This document shows positions 1 to 15,014 of a DNA stretch of 21,872 bases, in pieces. The translations under genes were made by a program, and so were the position numbers. The stretch is from the IMG/VR virus record IMGVR_UViG_3300040801_001538, positions 1 to 21,872 of that record; one strand, given 5' to 3'. The notes beneath the pieces were generated by a model. It ran no database searches. It had not been told where the DNA came from and was given only the letters and a program-made list of their open reading frames with translations. Each line of letters begins with the position of its first letter. Position 1 is the stretch's first letter. The stretch comes from a virus.

Positions 1-1054
1 CTGCATCAAGGTCGAAAGATACCTCACCGATAGCATCTTCAAATTCTAATGTTTTATAGATTCTGTATGATGCATCAAATGTATCAGCTGAAGCAACTGT
101 AGTACCTGTGTAACCATCTAAAGAAGTTGAACCGATAGCTGCTGGTGTTGATAAGTCTAACTCTAAGTAGATTTCACCTGCTGCGTTACAGATATCTTCA
201 TATTTACCACCTGGATAATTAGTCTCTGTTTCAGTACCATACTGAACGATACCTTTACCATACTTCTGAGTTACGACTCTGAAGTTATAATAAACGTCAG
301 GAGTTGCGTCTTTGTAAGTTTCCAATGATGCTAAGAATTCTTCAGTATCCATTTCTTGACCATCAGGACCAATTAATTTACCAGCACCACCTGATTGGAA
401 ACCTGATAATTTGAATAACAACGCTTTAACATTACCTGTTGCAATTGGAGTATCGTCACCGTTAACTGCCATACCCAATGCAACGTTCAATGCCACTTCC
501 ACTAATGAACCACCTGACCATACTACAGGTGTTAAATCTTTAGTCATTGCCGAGTAAGCACCTTTCGAGTAATCGAAAAGACCTGCTGGGTCAGAATTTG
601 GAGTTTCTCCTTCGTAGAAACGGTCGTACAAGTTCTTACCACTATCGTAGTTAGAATCTGTTGTTGATGGACCTCCTGGTGCACCGAATGGTGCTACGTG
701 TGTACCGTCAGAGTTTCTGTTCTGGATTTTAGGTACGAAGTAGAACAATTTACCGATTGGTAAGTTCATTGCTTGTACAGATACGATATCGTTAGCTAAT
801 AACTTAGAGAATACTCTTCTAACGATAGGAAAGACTACAGTTTCGAATGAACCTGAGTCAGAAGCGTTTGCAGCTTCGTTGATTAAGTGAGACGCTTGGT
901 TTTCGTATAACTGTGCTACGTTTTCTTTCAAGTGACCTTTCAAGCCATCTAAGAAACCTAATTTGTCCCATTTGTTGATTGTGTCTTCTTTGATAACTTT
1001 CAAGTGCTTAAGACCGATGTTACCTACTAGACCTGATTCTAATAATGCTCCCAT
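1..1054 (-). CDS. gp23: Major capsid protein, T4 gp23 type (C-terminus outside window)
   Basis: The reading frame is open from the ATG at 1054 to the left edge, giving 351 codons without a stop, so the C-terminal part lies outside the window. It forms the hexameric shell of the head. The N-terminal 60 residues are helical and charged. They end in HLINE|AANAS (E60|A61), which matches in position and style the T4 gp23 maturation site after residue 65. Next comes the typical N-arm segment with PIVRRVF (76-82) and then LANDIVSVQAMNLPIGKLFY, which is characteristic of gp23 homologues. The gene follows the scaffold gene after a 29-nt gap, the T4 order 21-22-23. Its leader is A/T-rich without a Shine-Dalgarno sequence and has no TATTTATA element, so it is probably co-transcribed with the scaffold. 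Family assignment is confident; the cleavage site is inferred. Confidence 0.93.
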   Translation of the reverse strand, partial: MGALLESGLVGNIGLKHLKVIKEDTINKWDKLGFLDGLKGHLKENVAQLYENQASHLINEAANASDSGSFETVVFPIVRRVFSKLLANDIVSVQAMNLPIGKLFYFVPKIQNRNSDGTHVAPFGAPGGPSTTDSNYDSGKNLYDRFYEGETPNSDPAGLFDYSKGAYSAMTKDLTPVVWSGGSLVEVALNVALGMAVNGDDTPIATGNVKALLFKLSGFQSGGAGKLIGPDGQEMDTEEFLASLETYKDATPDVYYNFRVVTQKYGKGIVQYGTETETNYPGGKYEDICNAAGEIYLELDLSTPAAIGSTSLDGYTGTTVASADTFDASYRIYKTLEFEDAIGEVSFDLDA

Positions 1055-1083
1055 TTTACTAATTTTTTAATTTAAGGATTTAT

Positions 1084-2571
1084 TTATTTAATAATTTTCG
1101 TCATCAAATCCTTCATTCTCATGAACTGAGGATTTTCGTACGTTTTAGACTCGATAAGATTCGAAGATGAACCTTTAACAGGAGACTTAGATACTTTCTC
1201 AGAAACTGATTCTGAAATTGTATTAGCTTCCTTGCCGTCAAACTCTTCTTTCAAAGTCTTATATAAGCCTTTAGATTCTTTCAATGTTTCTACTGAATCG
1301 AATCTTCTGAGGATGTTGATTTTCTCTTGCTTAGTAGTCGTGTTCTCAGTGAACAAACGAGTAGCGTAAGCTAAGTTAGAATTGAAAACAGCCACTTCAT
1401 TCAATTTCTCTTTGAAGATGTTAAGTGCCTTACGGTACTCTTCATTCTTTTCTCTAAGTTGTTGAATCTCTTTTTCAGCACTTTCACCCAAACGAGCTTT
1501 GTTAGGTACTGAGTGTGGTCTTGGTAAACCTTTAGATTTGTCTGATGATGCATTCTGTCCAGCTGCGTGACTTCTCACCATACCTTCAGTTGCCTCACCT
1601 TCCATTCTTCTTTTACGTAATTTAAATGGTTGACCGTATTTTTCTTTATACATATCAAACATTTTCCTACCACTACTACTCATTCCTAAGTCTTTTTCGT
1701 CACCCATATCAGGTGCGAACCAGTTTTGTTTGTCACCATACTTTGACATTAAATCATCAAATGAGTCAATTTCTTCTTCATCGTATTCAAAATCAAAGTC
1801 CCCGTCATATCTTCTATCTTTTCTGTTATGCCAAGGTTGGTCACCAATACTTAAGAACATATCATCGTAATCTTCTACCATTTCTTCTTCTTGATATCCT
1901 TCTTTATACTCTTCGTCCATATCGTCTTCTTCAGATACTTCGATTTCGTAAACAACTTCGTCCATATCTTCTTCAGATACTTCTTCAGCCATTTCTTCTT
2001 CTTTCTCTTCTGATTCCATTTGGATTTTGTACTCGACATCAGCTTCGTCATCCTTAAGTGTAACTTCGTCACCCTCTTGAGAGATGATGATTCCGTCTTC
2101 TTCACCCATTGCCTTGAAAACCTTCATGATTTCCTCGTCAGACGCACCTGTTAAATCAAGTGGTAAAAGAACTTCTTCCTCATCGTCAACTTCCAACTCA
2201 TCACCAGGTAAGTCCATTCCCAACATATCTTCTACGTCTTCCATGTCCATTTCCTCGTCTTCGTCTTCCATTTCCGAATCTTCATCAGAATCCATGTCCA
2301 TATCCATGTCCATTTCATCCTCTAAGTCTTCAATGTCAAGTTCCATTTCTTGTTCAGCTATTTCTAACCCTTTTTCCATTTTTGAACCTTCATCCATTTC
2401 GACTGCGTCAACCTCCTCTTCCTCAGAGAGCGATTCTTTTACTAATTCACTGATTTCTTCCTTCATAGTAGAAGCAAGTATTCCTTTTGCGTTTTCTGTT
2501 ACGGCTTCTTCCAGATTCTTCATCTGAAGTAGTGCCTCTTCAACTAATGATTTTTTAGTTTCGTTTGCCAT
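1084..2571 (-). CDS. gp22: Prohead scaffold / core protein, T4 gp22 type
   Basis: A 495-aa, extremely acidic protein placed between the prohead protease and the capsid gene, as in T4. The N-terminal third is almost all Glu/Asp/Met, including an alternating Met-Asp run. The C-terminal third carries a predicted coiled coil (LREKNEEYRKALNIFKEKLN) followed by FNSNLAYATRLFTE and KINILRRFDSVETLKESK, a signature I recognise from core proteins of marine T4-like phages. The expected role is an internal scaffold around which gp23 assembles, later degraded by the gp21 protease; sites of the form (L/V)EE|A near residues 12 and 22 fit such processing. It is longer than T4 gp22 (about 270 aa), mainly through the acidic insertion. 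The start is the first ATG after an A-rich leader. The upstream TATTTATA element and 10-bp palindrome TTTGCGCAAA (2581-2590) lie in its 5' region. Confidence 0.88.
   Translation of the reverse strand: MANETKKSLVEEALLQMKNLEEAVTENAKGILASTMKEEISELVKESLSEEEEVDAVEMDEGSKMEKGLEIAEQEMELDIEDLEDEMDMDMDMDSDEDSEMEDEDEEMDMEDVEDMLGMDLPGDELEVDDEEEVLLPLDLTGASDEEIMKVFKAMGEEDGIIISQEGDEVTLKDDEADVEYKIQMESEEKEEEMAEEVSEEDMDEVVYEIEVSEEDDMDEEYKEGYQEEEMVEDYDDMFLSIGDQPWHNRKDRRYDGDFDFEYDEEEIDSFDDLMSKYGDKQNWFAPDMGDEKDLGMSSSGRKMFDMYKEKYGQPFKLRKRRMEGEATEGMVRSHAAGQNASSDKSKGLPRPHSVPNKARLGESAEKEIQQLREKNEEYRKALNIFKEKLNEVAVFNSNLAYATRLFTENTTTKQEKINILRRFDSVETLKESKGLYKTLKEEFDGKEANTISESVSEKVSKSPVKGSSSNLIESKTYENPQFMRMKDLMTKIIK
2285..2330 (-). 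repeat. Low-complexity Met-Asp coding repeat in scaffold gene
   Basis: Tandem hexamer-like units (TCCATG/TCCATA on the plus strand) encode alternating Met-Asp residues. They form the core of a wider Asp/Glu/Met-rich stretch and are prone to length variation by slippage. Confidence 0.7.
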
Positions 2572-2609
2572 TTTTTACTATTTGCGCAAATGTTTATTTA
2601 TTCTTATCA

Positions 2610-2617
2610 TATAAATA
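2610..2617 (-). promoter_or_regulatory. Putative late promoter element TATTTATA before scaffold
   Basis: Exact TATTTATA on the coding strand, 38 nt before the scaffold ATG and downstream of the terminator at 2661-2687. It would therefore restart transcription for the scaffold-capsid pair. It is one of eight exact copies found upstream of minus-strand genes. Function is inferred from recurrence and position. Confidence 0.5.
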
Positions 2618-2660
2618 GTATGAAATATGGAAAAATATCACATACGAAACATAAGAGCAT

Positions 2661-2687
2661 AAAAAAATCGGAAGTTACCCTCCGATT
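2661..2687 (-). terminator. Intrinsic terminator after the 69-aa gene
   Basis: On the minus strand a 7-bp stem, AATCGGA pairing with TCCGATT, is followed at once by a run of seven T. It lies about 25 nt downstream of the 69-aa gene stop and before the scaffold promoter element, so it ends the protease-containing unit. Confidence 0.75.
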
Positions 2688-2712
2688 CTTTAATTTTTTG
2701 GTTTAATTTTTG

Positions 2713-2922
2713 TTATTCGTAAACCTCGTCGATTTTACTTTCAGAACAAGCGGTGATTCTCCAATCGTGTGGGAAACCTTCGAAACTCTTAGTAACTTTA
2801 GCCTCAACTTCAGTTACATTGTAACCTCTTACTAATTTCTCTTCTCTGATTTTTTTAATCTTTCCTGAGTTTTCATCAGGTAGGTCATAACTAATTTTTG
2901 CTACAAAATATTTTTCATCCAT
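2713..2922 (-). CDS. Small protein, DUF4494-like
   Basis: A 69-aa protein with the pattern YFVAKISYDLPDE, then EEKLVRGYNVTEVEAKVTK, then a C-terminal segment with ITACSESKIDEVYE. The order (short beta strands, a 'Y(N/S)xTEAEA' helix and a closing 'I..s...IDEVY' strand) resembles the DUF4494 family of Bacteroidota and their phages; this is from memory of the family and could not be checked. It sits 13 nt downstream of the protease gene and just before a terminator, so it is the last gene of that unit. The function is unknown. Location in the head cluster suggests late expression but does not prove a virion role. Confidence 0.75.
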   Translation of the reverse strand: MDEKYFVAKISYDLPDENSGKIKKIREEKLVRGYNVTEVEAKVTKSFEGFPHDWRITACSESKIDEVYE

Positions 2923-2935
2923 GGTATAAAAGTTT

Positions 2936-3655
2936 TTAATTACCTAAATAATCGGATAATCTTTTCATTAAGTCAATAGACGCACCCATTCCACCATCAA
3001 TTCTTGGTTCTTCTTGAGGTCTTTTCTCCTCTTCTAAGTTTTCCTCATACTTACCCTTATCATCCTTATTAAGGAATAAGTACGCACCTGGAGTAGATGG
3101 TGATGATACCAAATCAAAACAGATAAGTTCAAAATCTTCTTGTACCTCGTTTCTTTCACCCTTCTTAGCCAATGAACCGACACCACGAGAAGATACCCCC
3201 ATAGTTACACCTTGTCTCATAAGGTTAGCCGCTTGGTCACCAGGACAAGACACTACACCACCGTTATGGAACCCTGGTGATGTTAATAATTTAATCTTAC
3301 CCATCAGTGTATTACCTTCCCACCACATATCTGTAATAAGGTGTGATACACGGTCCAAATCAATTAGTGATGATTCAGGGTGATTAAGTTCTGAGATAGA
3401 TAAACCTTTACTGATTGCTCCTTGATATCTTTCGGCTTCTCTACGTAAAATCTTTTCAGGGTATACACGACCATTTCTATTTGGTGTGTCATATTTTTGT
3501 AATACCGCATAAAACTCAAATGGTTTCGAATGGTCTAAGTCACCATACGATTCTTTGATGACTTCTGCGTTACGGCTATCGTGTGGATTAACATATCCTG
3601 CATCCCACTCTATCAATATCCCTTTACCTGTATCTTGTGGTCCTAAAACTTTCAT
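2936..3655 (-). CDS. gp21: Prohead core protease, T4 gp21 type (peptidase S77-like)
   Basis: A 239-aa serine protease that would cleave the scaffold, capsid protein and internal proteins during head maturation. Features seen: NRNGRVYP near residue 60, SELNHPES with likely catalytic His92, MGVSSRGVGSL with likely nucleophile Ser155 or Ser156, and FDLVSSPSTPGA (Asp181), all in the order expected for T4-like prohead proteases. The length is close to T4 gp21 (212 aa). The Glu-rich C-terminal tail (201-220) could be an autoprocessed segment. The start is the ATG at 3655, 16 nt after a TATTTATA element; the leader is A/T-rich without Shine-Dalgarno. It is followed by the 69-aa gene in the same unit. 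Family assignment is strong; the exact catalytic residues are inferred by position. Confidence 0.92.
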   Translation of the reverse strand: MKVLGPQDTGKGILIEWDAGYVNPHDSRNAEVIKESYGDLDHSKPFEFYAVLQKYDTPNRNGRVYPEKILRREAERYQGAISKGLSISELNHPESSLIDLDRVSHLITDMWWEGNTLMGKIKLLTSPGFHNGGVVSCPGDQAANLMRQGVTMGVSSRGVGSLAKKGERNEVQEDFELICFDLVSSPSTPGAYLFLNKDDKGKYEENLEEEKRPQEEPRIDGGMGASIDLMKRLSDYLGN

Positions 3656-3671
3656 ATTAATAAATCTTTAT

Positions 3672-3679
3672 TATAAATA
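3672..3679 (-). promoter_or_regulatory. Putative late promoter element TATTTATA before protease
   Basis: Exact coding-strand TATTTATA in the context GTATTTATAATAAA, 16 nt before the protease ATG. The same extended context recurs before the OmpA-like gene at 21591. Confidence 0.55.
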
Positions 3680-3693
3680 CTTGAGAATAGAGA

Positions 3694-4092
3694 TTATTCT
3701 ATGATGACATCATATTCACTTATCTCCACTCCAATGTATTTGGAATATTTCGCATTCATTATTTCGGACACTCTATTATTGATGACATGTCCCAATGATA
3801 AATCTTCACCTGAATAAACATCTTTGATTGCCCAAGCCATTGCGAAACTAGTCACATCTTGTTCACCGTAATAGGTATATAGGATTTTATCGATACCAAC
3901 TCTAACAGATACATCACTATCCTCTATGTCTCCTTCTAATATTACGTGACGAAATGTCACAACAGTAAAATCCTCCTCCACTGTAAAATCAGAAGGGTCA
4001 ATAAGATTATTGAGGTCATCAAGGGCCGTGTTGGCTTCATTGATGACCTTCTTTAATCTTCTTAATTGATTCTCTGTAATTTTGATTTTCAC
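3694..4092 (-). CDS. Unknown 132-aa protein with possible cleavable capsid-targeting leader
   Basis: No known domain is recognised. The first 20 residues, MKIKITENQLRRLKKVINEA, form a basic amphipathic helix ending in INE|A (E19|A20), the same tetrapeptide as the predicted maturation site of the capsid protein in this window. The rest is an acidic, mixed alpha/beta domain (VTFRHVILEGDIEDSDVSVR, then a Tyr-rich segment). The T4 internal proteins IPI-III and Alt carry a comparable short leader that directs them into the prohead and is removed by gp21. The gene lies directly upstream of the protease gene. A near-match to the late element (GATAAATA on the plus strand, 4108-4115) lies 15 nt before its start. 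I infer, without proof, an internal head protein. Confidence 0.75.
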   Translation of the reverse strand: MKIKITENQLRRLKKVINEANTALDDLNNLIDPSDFTVEEDFTVVTFRHVILEGDIEDSDVSVRVGIDKILYTYYGEQDVTSFAMAWAIKDVYSGEDLSLGHVINNRVSEIMNAKYSKYIGVEISEYDVIIE

Positions 4093-4102
4093 GAAAAAGG
4101 TT

Positions 4103-4552
4103 TTAAGATAAATATTCCGTCTTTTTCGTTTTAGTCTTAGATAGTGTAAAATACTTTGATGACATTAACTCATCTTGATATATTGATTTACAAATAGTTT
4201 TAACTCTGTCTCTTAAAATTGGTGATTTAAAGTCCATATGTTCTTTTACAAATAAAGTAACTTCTAAGTTCATAAATGACTTCTTACCGACTTGAATACC
4301 ACTGGTTCTCAAATCTAAATCTACTATATTGTGTGTTTCAAATATTAAGGGGTCGACACACTCCAATAGGTTATGTTTAATATTTCTGTTTAGGTTTCCG
4401 TTTATTCTATTCCAATTGTCTGATTCTATGGTTGGTTCAACCCACGACTGTATCGTAATATAGATTGATTTTAATTTATGCGCATCAACCGTACCATAAC
4501 TACATTTAGCATTTTCGAAGATATTCAACTTCGAACTTTTTCCTTTTTTCAT
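4103..4552 (-). CDS. Conserved-looking unknown protein, 149 aa
   Basis: I do not recognise this protein. It begins with a basic segment (MKKGKSSKLNIFENAK) and has an alpha/beta composition with several aromatic and Asn-rich stretches (WVEPTIESDNWNRINGN, then HNIVDLDLRTSGIQ and FMNLEVTLFVKEH), ending in a Lys/Thr-rich tail. There is no signal peptide or membrane segment. It is the first gene downstream of the divergent rpsU promoter region. No clear TATTTATA element precedes it; its leader contains only TATAT-rich sequence. It is separated by 10 nt from the following 132-aa gene, so the two are probably co-transcribed. Coding status is supported by length and fit between neighbours. Confidence 0.75.
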   Translation of the reverse strand: MKKGKSSKLNIFENAKCSYGTVDAHKLKSIYITIQSWVEPTIESDNWNRINGNLNRNIKHNLLECVDPLIFETHNIVDLDLRTSGIQVGKKSFMNLEVTLFVKEHMDFKSPILRDRVKTICKSIYQDELMSSKYFTLSKTKTKKTEYLS

Positions 4553-4636
4553 ATATTTTCATATATCTTATATCGTTTATTGTTGATAAAAGTATAATAA
4601 ACTTTTCACCGTTAGTCAAAAAATGGTATAGTCTTT

Positions 4637-4644
4637 TATATTTA
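4637..4644 (+). promoter_or_regulatory. Putative -7 promoter element for rpsU
   Basis: TATATTTA is one base from the Bacteroidota -7 consensus TAnnTTTG and lies 15 nt before the bS21 start. No convincing TTTG -33 element was found at the usual spacing, so this is weaker than the other plus-strand promoters. Confidence 0.4.
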
Positions 4645-4659
4645 TTATTATAATCAAGT

Positions 4660-4851
4660 ATGTTAATAGTAAAAGTAGACAAAAAAGGTGGTATTGAGAG
4701 AGCTCTCAAAAATTATAAGTACAAGGTCATTAAGACCAAACAACTTAATAATTTGAGGGACGGAAGATACTATGAAAAGCCAACCACTAAAAAAAGAAGA
4801 CAATTAGAAAAAGCCAAATATAATGAAAAAAGAAAGGGTTCAGAATACTGA
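4660..4851 (+). CDS. rpsU: Phage-encoded ribosomal protein bS21
   Basis: A 63-aa, strongly basic protein with the bS21 plan: a short N-terminal beta strand (MLIVKVDKKGGIERALKNYK), a helix, then KPTTKKRRQLEKAKYNEKRK. Length and sequence style match Bacteroidota bS21. It would join the small ribosomal subunit near the 16S rRNA 3' end and affect initiation. Tyr54 is present; from memory, Tyr54 of Flavobacterium johnsoniae bS21 helps occlude the anti-Shine-Dalgarno sequence. There is no Shine-Dalgarno motif before its ATG. It is a lone plus-strand gene among late minus-strand genes, with its own promoter-like element and a strong terminator at its 3' end. Phage bS21 genes are known from other phages, including the pelagiphage HTVC008M. 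The alternative, a generic basic phage protein, is unlikely. Confidence 0.92.
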   Translation: MLIVKVDKKGGIERALKNYKYKVIKTKQLNNLRDGRYYEKPTTKKRRQLEKAKYNEKRKGSEY

Positions 4852-4861
4852 ACCCTTTTTT
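4833..4861 (+). terminator. Strong bidirectional intrinsic terminator
   Basis: Perfect 11-bp stem AAAGGGTTCAG / CTGAACCCTTT with an AATA loop, followed by T residues on the plus strand and by TTTCTTTTTT on the minus strand. The rpsU stop codon lies in the stem. It ends both rpsU and the convergent 244-aa gene (stop at 4864). Confidence 0.9.
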
Positions 4862-4863
4862 AG

Positions 4864-5598
4864 TTATAAACCTTCGTGTAGTTGTCGTAATTTATATAAC
4901 GATACTAAATCGTTTTTACTTTCACTAATCTTTTGAATGGTAATACCAATTTTTTCTTGAAGTTCTTTGTCTTCATTTTCATTGATAGTCCCTTGTAGTT
5001 TAGATACCACAGATTCTTTAAGTGTAGACATTTCTTCTGTGATTTGTTCTTTAGTCATAGAAAGTAATGATTTTAATTCTTCTTTTTCTGACTCAGCAAT
5101 ATTTTCAAACTCTTTGTTAAATGTGTTTGAAGCGATTTTCAACATTGTAGATAATGGGAGATTCACAGACTCTTTAATGATTTCTTCGACTTTTGTCTCA
5201 GTAAGTGTTTTCTCTATCTTTAATTTAGATTCTACTACTTGTTCTAATTTTGTTAAAGATTTCTCATATATAATATTATCAATATCTCTGTAAGTATTCT
5301 CAACAGATTCCTCTAAAAGTGAATCTACCCATTTAGATAATTCTTCAATTTTTTCTTTGTTATTTGTAATGATATCATTCAACTTTTCAAATGATTCATT
5401 TACATACATTGTTGCAACTTCTTTTGTTAGCCCTTTTTGTGAACTTAATTCATCATATAGGAAGTAGGCCTCTGCCAAGTTTTTATCTCCTAATATTCTT
5501 GATTTAAATCCCGACATATTAGTCTTGAAAGTACTCTTTCCATATGAAGAAACTAATGCTCTTTCAATTTTAGATTTTATATCACCAAACTTATTCAT
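4864..5598 (-). CDS. Helical head-cluster protein, 244 aa
   Basis: A mostly alpha-helical, Glu/Lys/Ser-rich protein with no recognised catalytic motif. The N-terminus (MNKFGDIKSKIERALVSSYG) is followed by FKSRILGDKNLAEAYFLYDE and long coiled-coil-like heptads up to the C-terminus (LVSLYKLRQLHEGL). I recall proteins with this N-terminal layout next to the portal gene in other marine T4-like phages, but know of no assigned function. It lies 24 nt downstream of the portal gene, has its own TATTTATA element 13 nt before the ATG, and ends at the bidirectional terminator. A structural, portal- or core-associated role is plausible from position only. Confidence 0.8.
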   Translation of the reverse strand: MNKFGDIKSKIERALVSSYGKSTFKTNMSGFKSRILGDKNLAEAYFLYDELSSQKGLTKEVATMYVNESFEKLNDIITNNKEKIEELSKWVDSLLEESVENTYRDIDNIIYEKSLTKLEQVVESKLKIEKTLTETKVEEIIKESVNLPLSTMLKIASNTFNKEFENIAESEKEELKSLLSMTKEQITEEMSTLKESVVSKLQGTINENEDKELQEKIGITIQKISESKNDLVSLYKLRQLHEGL

Positions 5599-5611
5599 AA
5601 TTGTTTTTATT

Positions 5612-5619
5612 TATAAATA
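5612..5619 (-). promoter_or_regulatory. Putative late promoter element TATTTATA before 244-aa gene
   Basis: Exact coding-strand TATTTATA, 13 nt before the ATG at 5598, in the 24-nt gap after the portal gene. Confidence 0.5.
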
Positions 5620-5622
5620 TCT

Positions 5623-7497
5623 TTATTTGAGTAAGTCGTTTAACTTTTCTTCCATTTCACCCAGTGATGTCCTTCCCTTAGATAAGTCTATGGTTTCATC
5701 TCTACCAAATAAAGTCGTATCTTCTAATATCAAATCCAAATCTTTATTTCTAACGAATGTCTCAGGAGTTATGTCTTCACCACCTGTTTCAACTTCACCT
5801 CCGATGTCTCCACCTAAGTCTCCACCTAAGTCACCACCTAAGTCACCACCGCCGAAGTCACTTCCTCCTCCGCCGAAGTCTCCTCCACCGAAATCATCAC
5901 CACCTTCGTCAGAAGTTTCACCTTCAGGTTGACCACCTTTCTGACCGTATAGTTTATCTAAGTTATCGAATATACCCGTATTAATAATAACCTCTTGAGT
6001 TTTCTCCAATTCACCAGCAACCGCTCTTTCAATACGTTGTTGTTGAAGGTCTAACTTAATTTCCTCATCAGAGAAACCAAGAATGTGTTTCTTAGCCCAC
6101 GATGAAGATACTGGTAAAATACCATTACCTGGGTCAGTTGTTGCATCACGATACAATTGAATCTTCTGTTGCCATTGCTCCACTTTCAACAAGTCTGCTT
6201 GTGATGATGGGTTTGTCAATGCCAATTGGAAGTTTTGTAATTCATCCTCAAATCCTAAAATGTATAAGTGAATGATTGCAATCTTATTCAACTCCTGAAT
6301 CATAGACTTTTGGATTCTATTGATTGTACGAGCAAAACGAATATCTTGTAACGCCAAGTTCTTACCATCACCTGTAACTTCTTCAAAACCTAAGAACGCC
6401 TTTGGTACACGTAACGCAGTTAAAAGTTTCTTTTGGATATATTCAATATCCGCAATCTCTGATAAGTTTTGTGCACCTGGTAAGGTATCAATAGGGTTCG
6501 GAGCATTAGGGTCACGAACAGGAATAAAGTAATCTTGGTCAACAGCCATTTGGTTCATACGTAAGTCTACATTACCCGTTGAAGGGTCTGCAACTTGGTC
6601 ACGTTTGAACTTATTGGCGACTCGTTGTACATACGGTTCGACATCTTTGTCATCCATATTACCTACGAAGACTTTAAATACCCTTCTTTCAGGTGCTCTT
6701 GATGTTCTATAGATTAACATCGCATCTTCAGAAAGAATAAGTTGTTTCCATATTCTTCTGGCTTTCTCCAACATTGAAGTACCATAAGGTAACTTTCTAT
6801 CATCACCCAATAATCTAAAATGTGCAATTTCCCACGTGTTGAACTCCATGTCCTTAACTTTCCATGTGAACTTAAGAACCTCTTCATTACTTTCACCACT
6901 TGGTTGTTGTACACCATATTGACTTGGTGCTGACTTCATACCTCTTTCCAATCTTTCGATTTCAATGTTCGGTAATTGTTGACCACCCATGATACCCTTT
7001 TCAGGGTCCAACTTAAGGTAAACAAAGTTATCACCGTACTTAGCGGTATTTCTTGTCCACATCGGTAAGTTAGTGTCAATGTCTAATCTATTGTTGAATA
7101 AATCTGTCAATACAGATTTGATTCTTTTACTCTCGGAATATACCTGTAAAATGAAACCATCTTCATTTGCAGTTGTAGATTCCTCAGCATAGATATCAAG
7201 AGCCGCAGATATTTCAGGAGTATACTCCATACTCTCGTAATCGTAAAATGCGGCCAATCTTGTTGGTTCGTAATATACGGCTTGAGTATATAGGTTATTT
7301 TCAACCTTTTGCCACTGTTGACCTAAATATAAAGTCTGTTGGGCTTGTAGTTTTTCTCTTTCGTACTCCTGTTTGTCTCTAGTCCTTAATAAATCTTCCT
7401 TATCAAAATTATAAACAGGAGGCTGCTGGTCCAATGTTGAATCGGGACCAAATACTTTGGTTAATCTCTGCCAAACAGTATAGTTATTTTTAGCCAT
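5623..7497 (-). CDS. gp20: Portal vertex protein, T4 gp20 type
   Basis: A 624-aa portal that forms the dodecameric DNA channel at one head vertex and docks the terminase. Recognised segments: RLAAFYDYESMEYTPEISAA and ALDIYAEEST (approximately residues 80-110), WTRNTAKYGDNFVYLKLD, the AHFRLLGDDRKLPYGTSMLE block, YRTSRAPERRVFKV, and the LRVPKAFLGFEE region, all usual for T4-like portals. It is about 100 residues longer than T4 gp20; the extra length is mostly a C-terminal Gly/Asp tail of FGGGD and LGGDLGGD repeats, followed by a short conserved-looking end. It lies 49 nt downstream of terL and has its own late element. Assignment is strong; the role of the Gly/Asp tail is unknown. Confidence 0.93.
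   Translation of the reverse strand: MAKNNYTVWQRLTKVFGPDSTLDQQPPVYNFDKEDLLRTRDKQEYEREKLQAQQTLYLGQQWQKVENNLYTQAVYYEPTRLAAFYDYESMEYTPEISAALDIYAEESTTANEDGFILQVYSESKRIKSVLTDLFNNRLDIDTNLPMWTRNTAKYGDNFVYLKLDPEKGIMGGQQLPNIEIERLERGMKSAPSQYGVQQPSGESNEEVLKFTWKVKDMEFNTWEIAHFRLLGDDRKLPYGTSMLEKARRIWKQLILSEDAMLIYRTSRAPERRVFKVFVGNMDDKDVEPYVQRVANKFKRDQVADPSTGNVDLRMNQMAVDQDYFIPVRDPNAPNPIDTLPGAQNLSEIADIEYIQKKLLTALRVPKAFLGFEEVTGDGKNLALQDIRFARTINRIQKSMIQELNKIAIIHLYILGFEDELQNFQLALTNPSSQADLLKVEQWQQKIQLYRDATTDPGNGILPVSSSWAKKHILGFSDEEIKLDLQQQRIERAVAGELEKTQEVIINTGIFDNLDKLYGQKGGQPEGETSDEGGDDFGGGDFGGGGSDFGGGDLGGDLGGDLGGDIGGEVETGGEDITPETFVRNKDLDLILEDTTLFGRDETIDLSKGRTSLGEMEEKLNDLLK
5803..5905 (-). repeat. Gly/Asp-coding tandem repeat in portal C-terminus
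   Basis: Roughly 12-nt units (CACCTAAGTCTC and variants on the plus strand) encode GGDLGGDLGGD and related FGGGD units. The flexible, acidic, glycine-rich tail is atypical for T4 gp20. Confidence 0.7.
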
Positions 7498-7509
7498 TTC
7501 TTCTTTTTA

Positions 7510-7517
7510 TATAAATA
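7510..7517 (-). promoter_or_regulatory. Putative late promoter element TATTTATA before portal
   Basis: Exact coding-strand TATTTATA in the context ACTATTTATATAAAAAG, 12 nt before the portal ATG. Confidence 0.5.
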
Positions 7518-7546
7518 GTAGTTATATTCTACAATAATTCAATATT

Positions 7547-9322
7547 TTATCTTCTACCCCCGAATAACCATAAATAGTTTTCATAATCACTTTTTGTTGC
7601 ACCACCTCTTCTATGGTTTGCATAAGGGTCATTCGGCATTGCACTTAACGATGGATTGTAGTCATTAACAGGGTTTCTAACTGGTGTTTCATGTACCATC
7701 CAACTATCAACCATCGCTTTGGTTTGTTCGGTTACCTTCTCCAAAGATGAGAATGAGTTCTCACCAACATATATTGCCATAGCCATTGCCATGATAAGGT
7801 CATCGTGTTGTCCTTTTTGGTGGTCAGGTCGACCATTGATATATACAAATGTATTCAACTCATTTAAAAGTCTTGTAGAACGAACCTGATAGTCGTGTCT
7901 TAACGCTTCTTCAAATGCTGCAACAATCTGTACCCTTTTACTGTTAAAGTTAAGACCAGGTATTTTCTCCATCGCCTTAGGGTTGTACTTCCATTTATCA
8001 GCGGCATTTACACCTTCAATATATAAGTTTTGATAACCCAATTCCTGTAATTTTCTCGATGTTGATACACCCATACCACCAGTAATGTCAATCACCACAA
8101 ATGCAGAATACATAGTTGCCCATTTAAATGCGACCTCAGCGGCAACATCAGGTGGTATCTTACCCAAATACTCTAATACCTGTTCTCTTTCATCAAAGTC
8201 AATGATACAGAAGGTAGTGAAATCCTCACTATCACCACGAGAGACATCAATACCCATAATGTACTTATGTCCCTGAATTGGTTCCTTCCATTGCCACAAC
8301 GCACCACCCATAAACTTGTTTTCAGGTTCACGAATGTATCTATCTTTCATCTTCTCAATAGTGTCGTTAGGGATAACATTATCCCCCGAACCTAAGAAGT
8401 TACACTCCAATTCCTGAGCAATCTTACGTCTATCAAACTTAAGTTTCTTAGCCATTGCCTCGAACCAATCAGAATAAGGTTTATACCCATCGTTAAACCT
8501 ATCGTTAATCTCATCAAAATCTCTCAATCTCGGGTCAACCTGAGTATAGTCAATTATTATCTCATCATCGTTATAATCCTCACGATTTAACATATAATGA
8601 ACAATGTCCGTACACTTAATAAGTTTTAGGTTTTTGGCGTAACGAGGGTCTCTATACCAATACATGTCGGTAATCTTGAAATCATTCATCCCTCTTAATG
8701 CTTGGTCGTAGATTGCATAGTAGATAGGGTCAAAACCGTTAGGTGTTGAAATAACAATTACCTTACCACCTGTAGACAACGATGCCATACACGCAGACCA
8801 GAAATCATCATCGGCATCGATAAACGCCGCCTCATCAAATATTAATATAGTAGGGGTATAACCACGTAAGGCATCCTTAGATGTTGCAACAGCCTTGACC
8901 TCACACCCATTGGTTAACTTAAAGTGTCTTTGTGAGTTCTTATCTGCAGAAAACTTAATACCTAACCAAGCCGGCCATTGGTCAACAAAAGCACGTATCT
9001 TATTTGCAAACTCCATAGATGTATCGAGTTTGTTAGCAATGATTAGTATCTTCTCAGGTTTACTCTTTTTTGCAGTAACTAACTTCTTTGATGCCCAAGC
9101 GGCAGTTACCGTTGATACACCCGCCTGTCTATATTTAATTGCAATATTTTCCTCGAAGTTATCGTAATCAGAAATTAACCTGTCTTGGTCGGGAAAAAGT
9201 TCTAGTGGGACGTAACGAGATTGTGTGTTGTCGTATGTTTGTAGGTATGTCTTTAGTGCATATGAAGTATCTTTCACAATCTTTGCGTACTCGACCAATA
9301 CCTGTTCTCTCGTTAAAGCCAT
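7547..9322 (-). CDS. terL: Terminase large subunit, T4 gp17 type
   Basis: A 591-aa DNA-packaging motor with an N-terminal ATPase and a C-terminal RNase H-like nuclease. ATPase: KYRQAGVST (63-71) at the Walker A position, Walker B TILIFDEAAF with Asp163 and Glu164, and coupling motif VISTPNG (190-196). Nuclease: GIDVSRGDSEDF (Asp359), FVVIDITGG (Asp412) and HDDLIMAMAM (Asp507/508), the expected three acidic sites. Length is close to T4 gp17 (610 aa). The Walker A lacks the usual GK(S/T) lysine; Lys63 at the start of the motif matches the deviant lambda gpA pattern instead. The ATG at 9322 lies 21 nt after the preceding gene's stop. No small terminase is evident in the window. Confidence 0.94.
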   Translation of the reverse strand: MALTREQVLVEYAKIVKDTSYALKTYLQTYDNTQSRYVPLELFPDQDRLISDYDNFEENIAIKYRQAGVSTVTAAWASKKLVTAKKSKPEKILIIANKLDTSMEFANKIRAFVDQWPAWLGIKFSADKNSQRHFKLTNGCEVKAVATSKDALRGYTPTILIFDEAAFIDADDDFWSACMASLSTGGKVIVISTPNGFDPIYYAIYDQALRGMNDFKITDMYWYRDPRYAKNLKLIKCTDIVHYMLNREDYNDDEIIIDYTQVDPRLRDFDEINDRFNDGYKPYSDWFEAMAKKLKFDRRKIAQELECNFLGSGDNVIPNDTIEKMKDRYIREPENKFMGGALWQWKEPIQGHKYIMGIDVSRGDSEDFTTFCIIDFDEREQVLEYLGKIPPDVAAEVAFKWATMYSAFVVIDITGGMGVSTSRKLQELGYQNLYIEGVNAADKWKYNPKAMEKIPGLNFNSKRVQIVAAFEEALRHDYQVRSTRLLNELNTFVYINGRPDHQKGQHDDLIMAMAMAIYVGENSFSSLEKVTEQTKAMVDSWMVHETPVRNPVNDYNPSLSAMPNDPYANHRRGGATKSDYENYLWLFGGRR

Positions 9323-9343
9323 AATCCATAACTTAGATTTTTA

Positions 9344-10630
9344 TTATGATAAATCAATTCCCAAATCACCTAAGAAATCTCTGAACTCATCGTTATCCTC
9401 ATCATCTTCCTCAGAACCACCTAACGCATCTTCTAAGTCATATTGACGTAATTCCTCAACAATCTCATCAACCATTCTCTTAACGATTGCCTGACCTTTC
9501 TCAGTTTCACCCAAGATTTCTCTTGCAACCTCAAAGAACTCTTCAGTTGATAATGCTGAGAAACGTGAGAATAAATAGTTCTGAATCTCTCTCATATCAT
9601 CCTCAAATAAATCTTCAGGATATGATGCCATAAACTTTTCCCAAATGACAGGTCCTAAACGTAAGTCCCAAATCTCATATGGTAAGGTATCTTGTGAACC
9701 CATAACCATCTCAGCCGCCTTAGGGTCATCAGGTAAACCTTGTGTACCTAACACCTCATAAACACCTTTAATTAACTCGTGAATCAATACAGGAAAGAAT
9801 ATACCTTTAGCCTTAATTGTAGGTGGGTCAGTAGTGTCGTCAACTTCTTCAGAACCCTGAACACCTTCACCTTCACCTGCCATCATTTGAGTCATCTCAT
9901 CAGGTACAATCCAGTACATTAAATCTGCAATAGACATCAATACACCATAAAGATTTAATAGTTGTGGGTTTAAACGGTCTAACTCGTCAGCAACTAAGTT
10001 AAACATGTAATGACCTTTCTTAGATGCACCTTGAATAAGTGAATTAATGAAACGACGTTTTGCCTTTTCCATATCAAACTTATCCATCGCATCCATAAAT
10101 GCTTCGATGTCATCTTCCATATCTTCAGCGTTTTCATCACCGAAGGCTTTCATGATTTCTTCCTCATCAGGTTCCTCATCAGAAGAACCTCTCATTTTAG
10201 AAGTATCAATTTGTCCCATACCTGATAACAATTCAACATCAAATTGGAATGCTTCGTCAGGTAATGACATTTCTTTCTTTACTAAGTCTACCGATAAGTT
10301 TTCAAGATACTCAGTATTCTCGTTCTCAATCGCTTTAACCTGTTGTACTGCACGTTGTAACATCATCTGTAACTCCATGAAGGCATTAGGTCCTGAGATG
10401 TCAGTAAGACCTGTATATTGTTTTACCTTATCTACAACATCACCAAATCTTTTAGATGCTAACAATTCTTCAAATGAAGATACTACCCCATCGCCATCAA
10501 AATCAATATCCAATGCTGGATTATCTGATAGTGGAGTCTCACGGTCCTGAATCTTTGATTGGATATCAGGTGCCATTCTTTCAGGTCTGTCACCGTAATT
10601 AATCGGTGCTTCGTTAATTTTTTTGCTCAT
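9344..10630 (-). CDS. Acidic 428-aa protein with an EF-hand-like loop
   Basis: Function is not recognised. The protein starts MSKKINE|APINYGD, with the INE|A tetrapeptide also found at the predicted capsid cleavage site. Residues 43-54 (DFDGDGVVSSFE) have the exact 12-residue EF-hand loop pattern: Asp at 1, 3 and 5, Gly at 6, Glu at 12. This suggests one calcium site. The centre is helical and acidic (EEPDEEEIMKAFGD, AEDMEDDIEAFMDAMDKFDM), followed by a hydrophobic helix-rich core (LNLYGVLMSIADLMYWIVPDE, FFPVLIHELIKGVYEVLG) and a very acidic C-terminus. Its start overlaps the upstream gene by 17 nt, implying translational coupling. It immediately precedes terL. A virion or prohead component is likely from context only. 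Confidence 0.8.
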   Translation of the reverse strand: MSKKINEAPINYGDRPERMAPDIQSKIQDRETPLSDNPALDIDFDGDGVVSSFEELLASKRFGDVVDKVKQYTGLTDISGPNAFMELQMMLQRAVQQVKAIENENTEYLENLSVDLVKKEMSLPDEAFQFDVELLSGMGQIDTSKMRGSSDEEPDEEEIMKAFGDENAEDMEDDIEAFMDAMDKFDMEKAKRRFINSLIQGASKKGHYMFNLVADELDRLNPQLLNLYGVLMSIADLMYWIVPDEMTQMMAGEGEGVQGSEEVDDTTDPPTIKAKGIFFPVLIHELIKGVYEVLGTQGLPDDPKAAEMVMGSQDTLPYEIWDLRLGPVIWEKFMASYPEDLFEDDMREIQNYLFSRFSALSTEEFFEVAREILGETEKGQAIVKRMVDEIVEELRQYDLEDALGGSEEDDEDNDEFRDFLGDLGIDLS

Positions 10631-11462
10631 CTCTAAATTGTATATTTAAGGTGTTAAACTTCAAAAACTCAGGTAATCCTTTCTTACCTGCTTTCGGTGC
10701 TGGTTTGTGTTTTGGTTGGTATGGAGTTTTTCTTCCTGGTTTTTCTTTCGTACCAGGTTTAACTCTTGAAGGTGCAGTTGTCGTATCACCCGCCTTTGGA
10801 GCCGGTTTATGTTTCGGCTTATAAGGTGTCTTTCTTTCGGGTTTAGTCCTCGTAGGTGTCTTAACAGGTGCTTCCTTCGTACCAGGTATCTGTTCTAATA
10901 AATCTTTCTTACTCATTGTCATTGGTACGTATTTCTTCACCAAAGATACAATAGATTCTTCGATTTGTCTAATTTCGTTCTGTTTTTTGACATCTCTTAC
11001 ACATCTTTCAAACTTAGCCGATTCAGATTTACTGTAAGAATCTCTTTCACGACCTTCTAAACCTAAAGACGATGTACAGATAGCCCAAGGATTAACCTCT
11101 TCTACTTCACCCATCATTTGACGGTTATTATCAGAATCATCATCCATACCATCAGGTGCCATGTCTTTTTCATCATGTGGACCTTCTTGACCAGTGTAAT
11201 CTTGACGAGCTAAATCTTCTAACCCATCTTCATTCTCTTCCTCACCAATCTTTTGAATGGTTTGGTCAATCGCCTGATTTAATTGTGATAATTCCGCTTT
11301 CATTTGTTGAACATCATCAACTTTATCAGTTAAACTCTCTTGTTCACCAATTACGGCAGTATATAAGGTATCTATCTGAGTTTCGTTTAACATCTTTAAT
11401 GTTTCGAACTTTATACCTTTATTCAGTAAACTTGCAACTTTCTTATTATCCATGACTTGCAA
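10614..11462 (-). CDS. Unknown 282-aa protein with duplicated Lys/Pro-rich tail motif
   Basis: The N-terminal part (1-120) is helical and acidic (QQMKAELSQLNQAIDQTIQK). A central segment, NPWAICTSSLGL then KSESAKFERCVRDVKKQN, has two cysteines and resembles a short motif I have seen in other marine T4-like phage proteins without a named function. The C-terminal 80 residues are basic and carry two copies of an 18-residue unit (RKTPYKPKHKPAPKAG and RKTPYQPKHKPAPKAG), separated by a Thr/Lys/Pro linker. The gene overlaps its upstream neighbour by 17 nt and its downstream neighbour by 17 nt. An in-frame ATG at 11453 is an alternative start. The basic tail could bind DNA or an acidic partner, which is inference. 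Confidence 0.78.
   Translation of the reverse strand: MQVMDNKKVASLLNKGIKFETLKMLNETQIDTLYTAVIGEQESLTDKVDDVQQMKAELSQLNQAIDQTIQKIGEEENEDGLEDLARQDYTGQEGPHDEKDMAPDGMDDDSDNNRQMMGEVEEVNPWAICTSSLGLEGRERDSYSKSESAKFERCVRDVKKQNEIRQIEESIVSLVKKYVPMTMSKKDLLEQIPGTKEAPVKTPTRTKPERKTPYKPKHKPAPKAGDTTTAPSRVKPGTKEKPGRKTPYQPKHKPAPKAGKKGLPEFLKFNTLNIQFRDEQKN
10690..10850 (-). repeat. Two diverged coding copies of a KTPYxPKHKPAPKAG unit
   Basis: The two copies, near 10690-10740 and 10791-10845, are nearly identical as protein but clearly diverged at synonymous positions. This indicates an old duplication kept by selection rather than recent slippage. Confidence 0.7.
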
Positions 11463-11853
11463 TATTTTTTTCGTATGTTAATATGATATCTCTCTCATAT
11501 ATTTTATCTTCCACTTCTTTAACAGAATCCCCATATCTAAATACTAAACGGGTAAACTTATTTTCAGTTACGGCTTCACTTTCACTGTCTTCCCATGCTA
11601 AGGCAATTACACCTTCAACCGCATCATAGACAGAAAAGAAGTCAGAGTTTTGTATGAGATTTAATTCAATCCCTGAGTTCTTTAACACTCCAACCTTGTG
11701 TATAAAATGTATAAGGGGTGGAGTTGGGTTACCACCTGCTGGTTCTTTGTCCCAATCTTCACCCCATACATCGTCAACGTCGCTAAAAATAAACTCGTAA
11801 ATATTATCCCCTTTATAGTTGGGACCGAGTTCGTTAACGTATACTAATTTCAC
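11446..11853 (-). CDS. Conserved 135-aa phage protein, GTG start
   Basis: The sequence MKLVYVNELGPNYKGDNIYE, then FIFSDVDDVWGEDWD, PAGG and a second half with GVIALAWED, looks like a compact conserved protein that I recall in other T4-like phages of Bacteroidota. No function is known to me. The start codon is GTG (11851-11853), and it overlaps the TGA stop of the upstream 402-aa gene (GTGA), a classic coupling arrangement. The 3' end overlaps the next gene by 17 nt. There is no signal peptide, membrane segment or catalytic motif. It belongs to the four-gene coupled block upstream of terL. Confidence 0.82.
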   Translation of the reverse strand: MKLVYVNELGPNYKGDNIYEFIFSDVDDVWGEDWDKEPAGGNPTPPLIHFIHKVGVLKNSGIELNLIQNSDFFSVYDAVEGVIALAWEDSESEAVTENKFTRLVFRYGDSVKEVEDKIYERDIILTYEKNIASHG

Positions 11854-13058
11854 AGTAATTCACCGTTTTGAGAAACTTTTATTTGTTGTCCCTCGTTTTC
11901 AAACACTAAATTACCTTTATTTGTTTTTCCTAAAAACTTGATAGAATCATTTTCTTTCAATAAGAAGTCTGCAGTCAATTCTTGTTCAACAGTCTCACAC
12001 ATTGATTTCATCTCTTTTCTAATTGTAACCTTTTGGATTTTTTCAACTAAGAACTTCTTGATGTTTTTTGATTCATTGATTGTTTTTTCTTCATCACTAA
12101 CAACGAAGTATTTTGACAATACTTTATCGATTTTAGACTCACCAAAGATTTCGTCCATTACTTTTTGTCCGTAACCTTCTTCAACATCTGAAGATTCTTC
12201 CATTGGTTCTTCCATGTCCATATCTAAATCAAGGTCCATGTCCAAATCCATTTCATCACCAGCGTCAACATCTAAATCTGCCTCGTCATCAACACCGTAG
12301 TCGATTTCGTCGTCTTCAAAGTTTTCTAAGATATCTTCTTTATCTTCTTCAGTTAATTTTTCCAAATCAACTGCTGAGATAATTGAGTTTAACACATATT
12401 TGATATCTTCAGAACTTAAACCATCTTGTTGGTCGATAGTTCTTAATTTTTGATCTAACTTACCTGTTAGTTTTTGGATTTCTTTGATTGAGATTTCTTC
12501 TTCTTCGGGAGCTTCAGAATCTAAATCCATATCTAAATCAAGTTCTTCTTCACCACCTTCAGCATCTAAGTCTAAGTCTAAATCTAAGTCTAACTCTTCG
12601 TCACCACCCATATCTGAACCCATGTCTAAATCTAAATCCATTTCAGGTTCCATTGCTGGTTCTTCAACTTCAGGTTTTGGTGTTTTCAAAACAAACTTCT
12701 TATCTTGTTCACCGAATAAGTCTAAACCTTCTTCGTTTTCGTGAAGTGAGTTTAATTCTTTAGCCAAAAGATTTAACTTTTTAAAGGCTTTAGAATAAGA
12801 AGTATGATACTTTCTATTTTCAATTCGTTCTGCATAGTCCATTTCAGACTCGTTTAGACCATTCTTAATAATATATCCATTTCTATCATGAACAATACTA
12901 TAATACTTTCCATCTGCTAACTGTCTTGTATAATCAACAGTTTCGTTAACATTTGAAGTTGTACGGTCAACTTCATTGTAGCGAGCAATTTCCATGATAC
13001 GTCTTAACTTTTCAGTACCCTGTAATTTTTCACTTCCGATAGGTTTTAAATCTCCCAT
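11850..13058 (-). CDS. Acidic low-complexity 402-aa protein, possible second core/scaffold component
   Basis: The N-terminal 110 residues look folded (KPIGSEKLQGTEKLRRIMEI, then DGKYYSIVHDRNGYIIKNGL and SYSKAFKKLNLLAKELNSLH). The middle is strongly acidic with Leu/Met-Asp alternation (DLDLDLDLDAEGGEEEL and DMDLDLDMDMEEPMEE), much like the scaffold protein of this phage. The C-terminus returns to a folded, basic-helical region (KKFLVEKIQKVTIRKEM) and a short beta domain (SIKFLGKTNKGNLVFENEG). I recall the N-terminal motif in other marine T4-like phages without a function. It heads the coupled block 402-135-282-428 before terL. Similar composition to the scaffold suggests an internal head role, but this is inference. 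Confidence 0.8.
   Translation of the reverse strand: MGDLKPIGSEKLQGTEKLRRIMEIARYNEVDRTTSNVNETVDYTRQLADGKYYSIVHDRNGYIIKNGLNESEMDYAERIENRKYHTSYSKAFKKLNLLAKELNSLHENEEGLDLFGEQDKKFVLKTPKPEVEEPAMEPEMDLDLDMGSDMGGDEELDLDLDLDLDAEGGEEELDLDMDLDSEAPEEEEISIKEIQKLTGKLDQKLRTIDQQDGLSSEDIKYVLNSIISAVDLEKLTEEDKEDILENFEDDEIDYGVDDEADLDVDAGDEMDLDMDLDLDMDMEEPMEESSDVEEGYGQKVMDEIFGESKIDKVLSKYFVVSDEEKTINESKNIKKFLVEKIQKVTIRKEMKSMCETVEQELTADFLLKENDSIKFLGKTNKGNLVFENEGQQIKVSQNGELL
12565..12594 (-). repeat. Hexamer repeat coding alternating Leu-Asp
   Basis: About five tandem TCTAAG/TCTAAA units encode (Leu-Asp)n within the acidic centre of the 402-aa protein. They are comparable with the Met-Asp repeat in the scaffold gene. 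Confidence 0.7.
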
Positions 13059-14070: not shown

Positions 14071-14319
14071 TTAGTTTGTAAGTTTTTTGTATTTAAACTT
14101 CTTAGATATCTCAGTGTTAAAGAACTTTCCTTGAGATTCAGCTAGTCTGAACTTGGTATATACTTTGTGTGGGACCTCTTCATACTCGTACTGTGCTCCG
14201 TTCTTAAACGTAGCTGTTAGTGTCTTTTTATCAAGGTTATAGACCGTCTTCATGATATTTGAAGATTCTATCTCATTGATAATTTGTTTTCCCACTATTT
14301 TTTCACTTTTGATTGCCAT
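14071..14319 (-). CDS. KTSC-domain protein, 82 aa
   Basis: The C-terminal 60 residues match the KTSC domain (first named from the C-terminus of some lysyl-tRNA synthetases): YNLDKKTLTATFKNGAQYEY, then VPHKVYTKFRLAESQGKFFN and the closing ISKKFKYKKL. The usual order of strands, the VP..VY..F turn and the S.G.FFN motif are all present. Stand-alone KTSC proteins are common in phages; nucleic-acid binding has been suggested but the function is not established. The N-terminal 22 residues (MAIKSEKIVGKQIINEIESS) are an added helix. It starts one base before the upstream gene's stop region, so it is coupled to the 100-aa gene. Confidence 0.9.
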   Translation of the reverse strand: MAIKSEKIVGKQIINEIESSNIMKTVYNLDKKTLTATFKNGAQYEYEEVPHKVYTKFRLAESQGKFFNTEISKKFKYKKLTN

Positions 14320-14660: not shown

Positions 14661-15014
14661 TTAAGATTGTAATTTTTTTATTTCATCCCTTAGTTCAATG
14701 GCCCTTTCGAAGTCTTGTTTGTCGATAGCCTTTTGAAGTTTGGTTTGAAGATTACTTATCTTTTCACCGTTTTCCTCGATAGATTTAATCTTATCTCTTA
14801 ACTCAACAGCCTTTTCAAAGTCCTGTGATTCAACAGCATCTTGAAGCTCAGATTTTAATTTGATGGTCTCATCAACGGACTCACCCATAGAGTTATTAGA
14901 GTAGGTGAAAACATACCCATTAGGCCCAACCTTATAATACACAGGTTGAACATCATCGAATAAAGATTCTAAATCCTTAAACATTTGGTCAAAAATACTT
15001 TTTCTGTAAAACAT
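14661..15014 (-). CDS. UVR-motif protein (two UvrB/UvrC-type motifs), possible Clp partner
   Basis: A 117-aa protein whose C-terminal half holds two UVR helical-hairpin motifs: DFEKAVELRDKIK (65-77) and DFERAIELRDEIK (101-113), each preceded by a Lys/Leu/Gln helix. The N-terminal 45 residues (MFYRKSIFDQMFKDLESLFD, then YYKVGPNGYVFTYSN) match nothing I know and contain no zinc-binding cysteines, unlike McsA. UVR motifs mediate protein contacts in UvrB, UvrC, McsA and the middle domain of ClpC. The gene is divergent from the phage clpC gene, whose middle domain carries the same motif ([13 protein letters not shown]), so a partner or regulator of that ATPase is an attractive inference. It has its own terminator. 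A role in DNA repair is the main alternative. Confidence 0.85.
   Translation of the reverse strand: MFYRKSIFDQMFKDLESLFDDVQPVYYKVGPNGYVFTYSNNSMGESVDETIKLKSELQDAVESQDFEKAVELRDKIKSIEENGEKISNLQTKLQKAIDKQDFERAIELRDEIKKLQS

Follow-up and report, generated by a model that had tools for sequence, protein, structure and literature searches.

Detailed knowledge of how T4-type phages choose the proteins that are loaded into their heads comes mainly from the small internal proteins of T4. In T4, a leader with affinity for the prohead core is removed by gp21, which cuts at L/I-x-E (PMC9026906). In phiKZ and SPN3US, the N-terminal propeptides of many head proteins are removed after Glu by a gp21-related protease (PMC10052503, PMC5694885, PMC9026906). 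SaPI1 offers a precedent for a copied scaffold tail working as a shared-site binder: its CpmB protein has the same RIIK tail as the 80alpha scaffold protein, and the two bind one capsid site (PMC5644958).

The locus described here was found in a stretch of viral DNA of 21,872 bp, the entire IMG/VR record IMGVR_UViG_3300040801_001538 (referred to as the window). The window and its relatives resemble T4, with its IPI, IPII, and IPIII proteins (PMC9026906), in having short N-terminal leaders that end in L/I-x-E, an S77 protease, a T4-type head gene order, and diverse cargo. The leaders appear to differ from those of T4 in falling into several classes, set apart by their own residues, and one class seems to copy the scaffold tail. 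Unlike the T4 system, there are also many more carriers per genome, and P1' is often Q, S, or N. Predicted N-terminal propeptides, a predicted Glu cut site, and an encoded gp21-related protease are features shared with phiKZ and SPN3US. However, the capsid, portal, and protease belong to the T4/gp23 type, and the leaders are short repeated modules common to unrelated proteins. As with CpmB, a second protein appears to copy a C-terminal binding element of the scaffold, but the CpmB element is itself C-terminal and resizes capsids, whereas here the element is N-terminal on the cargo and a predicted protease site comes after it.

Head module and INE↓A sites of the window

A T4-type head module is encoded on the minus strand of the window. 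The genes discussed below are as follows.

2 to 1054, minus strand: gp23-type major capsid protein, gene truncated by the record end (Pfam Gp23, 5.3e-9)
1084 to 2571, minus strand: 495-aa acidic prohead core/scaffold protein, in the gp22 position between gp21 and gp23 (T4-like gene order)
2936 to 3655, minus strand: S77 prohead protease, gp21 type (PF03420, 1.7e-23; phrog_207, 3e-43)
3694 to 4092, minus strand: 132-aa protein of the head module
5623 to 7497, minus strand: gp20-type portal protein (phrog_213, 1.4e-68)
7547 to 9322, minus strand: terminase large subunit, gp17 type (phrog_2, 1.3e-38)
9344 to 10630, minus strand: 428-aa protein

The S77/gp21 protease thus lies within the head cluster, as in T4-type capsid targeting. 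Proteins of 244, 149, and 132 aa sit between the portal and the protease, and the gene list of the module also includes a 69-aa protein (minus strand). The scaffold-position protein had no match in Pfam or PHROG. The T4 gene order is 20-67-68-21-22-23 and that of the window is 20-x-21-22-23, which puts the 132-aa protein in the general region that encodes the core proteins gp67 and gp68 in T4.

A 63-aa homologue of ribosomal protein bS21 (4660 to 4851, plus strand; PF01165, 6.5e-10) is encoded on the opposite strand within the head cluster. The Mel-JY01 head cluster likewise has an annotated S21 protein, and a relative of the window, G001, has a similar small ORF. Elsewhere, the window encodes a ClpB/ClpC-like double AAA ATPase with a UVR-type stretch (15200 to 17218, plus strand; phrog_4871, 2.2e-242), adjoined by a 117-aa protein with two UVR motifs (14661 to 15014, minus strand; 5.4e-22). 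There is also an M42/M20-type peptidase homologue (17278 to 18351, plus strand; PF05343, 5.5e-7) and a protein with a probable signal peptide, MKKLLLLLLLLSTTAFSQ, and a CAP-domain match that is weak and below threshold (20257 to 20706, plus strand; 1.3e-3).

A preliminary description of this DNA reported the tetrapeptide INEA in three proteins. All three occurrences were found, on the minus strand; the sites had been placed correctly, with residue numbering off by about one. The arrow marks the predicted cut.

872 to 883, minus strand: INE↓A of the capsid protein (I58-N59-E60↓A61), predicted propeptide end
4033 to 4044, minus strand: INE↓A of the 132-aa protein (I17-N18-E19↓A20), closing the leader ITENQLRRLKKVINE
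10607 to 10618, minus strand: INE↓A of the 428-aa protein (I5-N6-E7↓A8)

The window proteins total 6,977 residues, for which composition predicts 0.11 INEA, and 2,000 within-protein shuffles never reached three. INEA does not serve as a signature of the clade: it occurs twice in about 285 proteins of G001 and twice in about 203 proteins of a second relative, G002. INE↓A as the tag itself was rejected for want of enrichment across relatives. Nor did the evidence support the proposal that INE↓A defines the targeting sequence. The constant part is only I or L (sometimes V) at P3 and E at P1, and the residue after the predicted cut may be A, G, S, Q, N, E, V, or I. The targeting information more likely resides in the upstream helix of 10 to 25 residues, which occurs in several classes. 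The preliminary description had therefore recognized a true signal and the right class of mechanism but had drawn it too narrowly.

There is good reason to think that the INE↓A sites mark cuts by the window's own S77 protease and that the leaders are capsid-targeting sequences clipped after (I/L)xE. In the capsid protein, the cut after INE would remove a propeptide. What the 132-aa and 428-aa proteins would lose is a short leader at the N-terminus that acts as a capsid-targeting sequence. The leader would dock the protein onto the prohead core during assembly, the protease would then clip after (I/L)xE, and the mature protein would stay in the head with the DNA. In relatives, a dozen or more unrelated proteins per genome carry this arrangement, in several leader classes.

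Conservation of the junctions in homologues

Homologues had been suggested as a test of the sites, and those of all three proteins retain the (I/L)xE junction, with a variable P1'. The gp23 of T4 is cut at residue 65. LINE60↓AANA of the window capsid protein matches T4 FLTE65↓AEIGG in position relative to the mature domain, so that an (I/L)xE↓A lies ahead of that domain where T4 has one. The corresponding sites are QIVSE↓ANVT in Flavobacterium phage immuto (I-V-S-E, with P3 V or I by register) and QLISE↓ANRT in Mel-JY01. All 30 distinct homologues have (H/Y/F)LINEA, but the capsid N-termini of the clade are 95% conserved overall, and the invariant site alone is therefore weak evidence.

The 132-aa family is the stronger conservation case. 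(I/L)xE is present in 18/18 members despite a 4-residue indel directly before the junction, several members being without four leader residues there. Mean column identity is 54%, the P1 Glu is among 12 invariant columns, P3 is always I or L, and P1' is A, G, S, Q, E, or V. A structure predicted with AF2 from 17 sequences (pLDDT 85) has a loose helix at residues 7 to 18 followed by a confident domain. The sole segment with pLDDT below 50 is residues 18 to 20, at the junction, and the modeled layout is as expected for a removable leader. The body fold had no match in BFVD or PDB.

In the 428-aa family, 12/13 members have (I/L/V/M)xE↓(A/Q), a count that accepts I, L, V, or M at P3. P3 is I, L, V, or A, and E7 is invariant. 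The leader, very short in the window, ranges from a few to about 14 residues, with the Glu kept throughout. An AF2 model of the 428-aa protein was poor (pLDDT 42.8) and was set aside.

Six further plausible (I/L)xE junctions, absent from the preliminary description, were found in the window.

2936 to 3655 (gene), minus strand: protease, possible self-cleavage at VIKE35↓S; VIKE↓S in 50/50 homologues
11340 to 11351, minus strand: IGE↓Q after residue 40 of a 282-aa protein (gene 10614 to 11462); P1' Q/E/A/L/V in homologues
12987 to 12998, minus strand: IME↓I after residue 23 of a 402-aa acidic protein (gene 11850 to 13058); 16/17, a weak candidate because the surrounding sequence is itself conserved
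14269 to 14280, minus strand: INE↓I at residues 14 to 17 of a KTSC-domain protein (gene 14071 to 14319); the domain begins at residue 18
20146 to 20157, minus strand: LLE↓G at residues 7 to 10 of a 614-aa protein (gene 18331 to 20175)
21501 to 21512, minus strand: LSE↓Q at residues 21 to 24 of a 279-aa protein (gene 20733 to 21572; likely start ATG at 21572), with the leader MGNKVIRLTEADIKKMVYKVLSE↓Q

Five window proteins (the 132-aa, 428-aa, 282-aa, KTSC-domain, and 614-aa proteins) have a near-N-terminal leader ending in (L/I)xE, and the junction is kept in 18/18, 12/13, 8/10, 9/10, and 4/4 homologues, respectively, despite leader change. KWCT-motif proteins related to the 614-aa protein bear other leaders.

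One possibility is that only the capsid site is real and that INE↓A in the 132-aa and 428-aa proteins matches a short motif by chance. (I/L)xE is indeed short and common, with about 0.3 to 0.5 occurrences per 25-residue stretch anywhere in the proteins, and this explanation also gains from the scarcity of INEA in relatives noted above. However, chance would not readily preserve the P1 Glu and P3 I/L through the indel of the 132-aa family, or the Glu through the large leader changes of the 428-aa family. The genome-wide excess described below also argues against chance, and we regard this explanation as rather improbable. A T4-type head protease probably does cut at all three sites: the capsid site is almost certainly cut, cutting of the 132-aa protein is very likely, and there is a good chance that the 428-aa protein is cut as well.

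Leader classes in related phages

Because the window is a complete record, the whole-genome scan that had been proposed was moved to relatives, which were gathered with the protease as the query. Two long relatives, G001 (270 kb) and G002 (159 kb), were read over their full records. The pattern originally proposed, (I/L)xE[AG], gave no clear N-terminal excess. With (I/L)xE[AGSQN], residues 1 to 40 contained 66 matches in G001 versus 30.5 in shuffled N-termini (z 6.8) and 52 versus 22.8 in G002 (z 6.5); residues 41 to 80 contained 35 and 30, respectively. The strongest N-terminal excess was that of (I/L)xEQ (17 versus 3 in G001).

Near-complete relatives carry classes of leaders on unrelated proteins, ending in (I/L)xE and then Q, S, N, A, or G. 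Three were described as profiles: LTE (KLTESDLxxIIxxVLxE), EINR (INEVxRMxxIMGIxE), and EKS (SEEEKxxIxxMYxLxE). Shorter helices form further types. Matches lay at N-termini in 36/41 cases for LTE, 11/11 for EINR, and 9/11 for EKS, on differing bodies, a descriptive result because the profiles were seeded from N-termini and contain the start methionine. In the window, the leader of the 132-aa protein belongs to the LTE class, and the 279-aa protein matches its profile (i-E 6.4e-9).

The shared N-termini might simply be inherited, the whole proteins having diverged from a common ancestor, rather than represent a swappable leader. Some carriers are indeed paralogues, such as the poly-lysine proteins with a YPSAYANG stretch. 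However, leader-bearing bodies include a PPK2 kinase (2.4e-71), proteins with PG_binding_1 and SLT transglycosylase domains, and small poly-lysine proteins with the predicted mature start KKKK; the kinase, the transglycosylase, and others share leaders but not bodies. Moreover, one protein body bears different leaders in different phages. For example, the RYMFFSNLxQxxRQC...YPSAYANG family has an LTE leader in L099 and L125 and a shorter leader, e.g., MKNLDRLIKQVLRE or MNIQSIIRKVLRE, in L055, L064, L073, and L076. The FDWDDN (HAD-like) family has four different N-termini. Common ancestry is therefore a very improbable explanation.

The PPK2 protein (PF03976; G002:C1:149111-150187, plus strand) has the EINR-class leader MRNLVTEVSKMKKIMGLDE↓ASKP, and a metabolic enzyme may thus be carried in the head. 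In small proteins of L016 (8120 to 8377, minus strand) and relatives, the predicted mature N-terminus is a run of up to 13 lysines and then the YPSAYANG stretch; these could possibly be DNA-binding internal proteins.

A KLTESDL DNA pattern had 37 matches in 2.9 million viral contigs, 14 of them in leader-type contexts (13 N-terminal and one protein with the motif at both ends). An S77 protease was on the contig in 8/14 leader-type cases versus 1/23 other matches (hand-calculated Fisher P about 6e-4; some contigs are related). In cultured phages, tblastn with the LTE leader consensus found no match, and the other leader consensus matched immuto and, weakly, the Mel-JY01 scaffold. None of the leader strings was found in the literature.

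In immuto-type phages (L106 to L109, immuto being NC_055915.1, and L267 to L344), further N-termini, such as FNLKKFLVE↓NKLTxNSKLLxE, FDIHKWQAKFLKE↓S, and MKRSEIVKAVQEVLSE↓M, recur in and around the gp20-gp23 cluster. A core protein there often ends in ESVSLKDLL or KKSLSELLK, and a relation to the recurring N-termini is possible.

The RMQKLAG leaders and the scaffold tail

The scaffold-position protein of the window ends in a tail that corresponds to the RMQKLAGI tails of other clades.

1087 to 1161, minus strand: C-terminal tail of the scaffold-position protein, NLIE↓SKTYENPQFMRMKDLMTKIIK (36 distinct, highly conserved tails)

An RMQKLAG DNA pattern taken from immuto leaders gave at least 81 matches in the loci kept. 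Among the matches listed, 58/81 were at the very end of a protein, and 56 of these C-terminal matches lay upstream of gp23, in the scaffold position; in most such cases the gp23 match starts 48 to 82 bp past the motif. About 20 of the matches listed were N-terminal, all with (I/L)xE within a few residues. Exact matches in 14 long contigs were scaffold tails or N-terminal leaders without exception, and the reversed pattern, run as a control, gave zero. Leader genes of this class sit within the gp20-gp23 cluster in L150 and L203. L203 pairs the leader RMQKLAGILSE with the tail SRWQKIAGIK on the same contig, and G064 pairs RMQKLAGIITE leaders with the tail RMKKLAGL. In immuto, the best N-terminal match is to the C-terminus of its own scaffold-position protein (shuffled-core P 0.007). 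The mature starts expected in immuto are SQFNEEL after MKKQILSEQFRRMQKLAGIITE, SEMWDRD after MKKQILSEQFKRMQFLAGIITE, KKADRC after ILSE, and, for the capsid protein, ANVTG.

In the window's clade, the resemblance of the EINR-class leader to the RMKDLM tail was not significant (P 0.08 in G001 and 0.37 in G002). Mel-JY01, which is complete and has the tail RMKKLAGIVK, has no RMQKLAG-type leader, contrary to prediction. A ranking of scaffold C-terminal 12-mers had placed G002 first of 197, but this did not hold once the core was fixed and shuffled controls were added, and the ranking was set aside. Neither a 16-column profile of immuto-type scaffold tails nor its 9-column core detected a leader in the loci chosen by gp21, which cover the head region only; immuto's own RMQKLAG-leader genes lie outside that region.

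It is also conceivable that the leaders are real modules with another role, binding a chaperone, a membrane, or a tail or baseplate partner, and that (I/L)xE belongs to an amphipathic helix instead of marking a cut. The leaders are short predicted helices, and several cargoes resemble cell-wall enzymes or peptidoglycan binders (SLT, PG_binding_1) that could act in tails. However, the scaffold-position protein encoded beside gp23 has a tail that the RMQKLAG class matches, leader-bearing genes lie within the gp20-gp23 cluster, leaders are associated with the S77 gene, and the conserved P3/P1 pattern fits the T4 protease (PMC9026906). Another role is thus unlikely, and we consider it quite likely that the leaders act as packaging tags.

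The presence of RMQKLAG both at scaffold C-termini and at the N-termini of leaders makes this class look like a mimic of the scaffold tail, and we lean slightly toward such mimicry as the way in which it works. Given the match between this leader class and the scaffold C-terminus, the docking mode that seems likeliest puts cargo in the binding site of the scaffold tail. RMQKLAG-class cargo would probably dock where the scaffold tail docks. The tail has an (I/V)xE site ahead of it, and a similar cut there would release it. A more general possibility, which we put forward only tentatively, is that leaders mimic the C-terminal docking tails of prohead core proteins, so that cargo is a decoy scaffold and each class copies a different core protein. 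The protease that frees the scaffold tail (VISE↓VSDAVRRMQKLAGIIK) might then, equally tentatively, free the cargo as well. The LTE class was considered as a copy of a core protein tail, for which there were hints only: a 112-aa protein with LTE-type motifs at both termini (LKESELIDLIEKLVKE and KLTESDLIRVIKNVVKEQNK; L111, 397 to 735, plus strand) and a core protein in L150 that ends in ESKLRSIISKLIREELN.

In these giant phages, short, removable N-terminal tags probably steer many unrelated proteins into the head. If the leaders are packaging tags, sequence could suffice to list the head-enclosed, probably injected proteins of many uncultured giant phages, with enzymes such as PPK2 and cell-wall hydrolases among them. 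A copied scaffold tail would explain, in concrete and testable terms, how a capsid-targeting sequence docks. If cargo does act as a decoy scaffold, the leaders would constitute a general, swappable address system that loads dozens of proteins into giant-phage heads.
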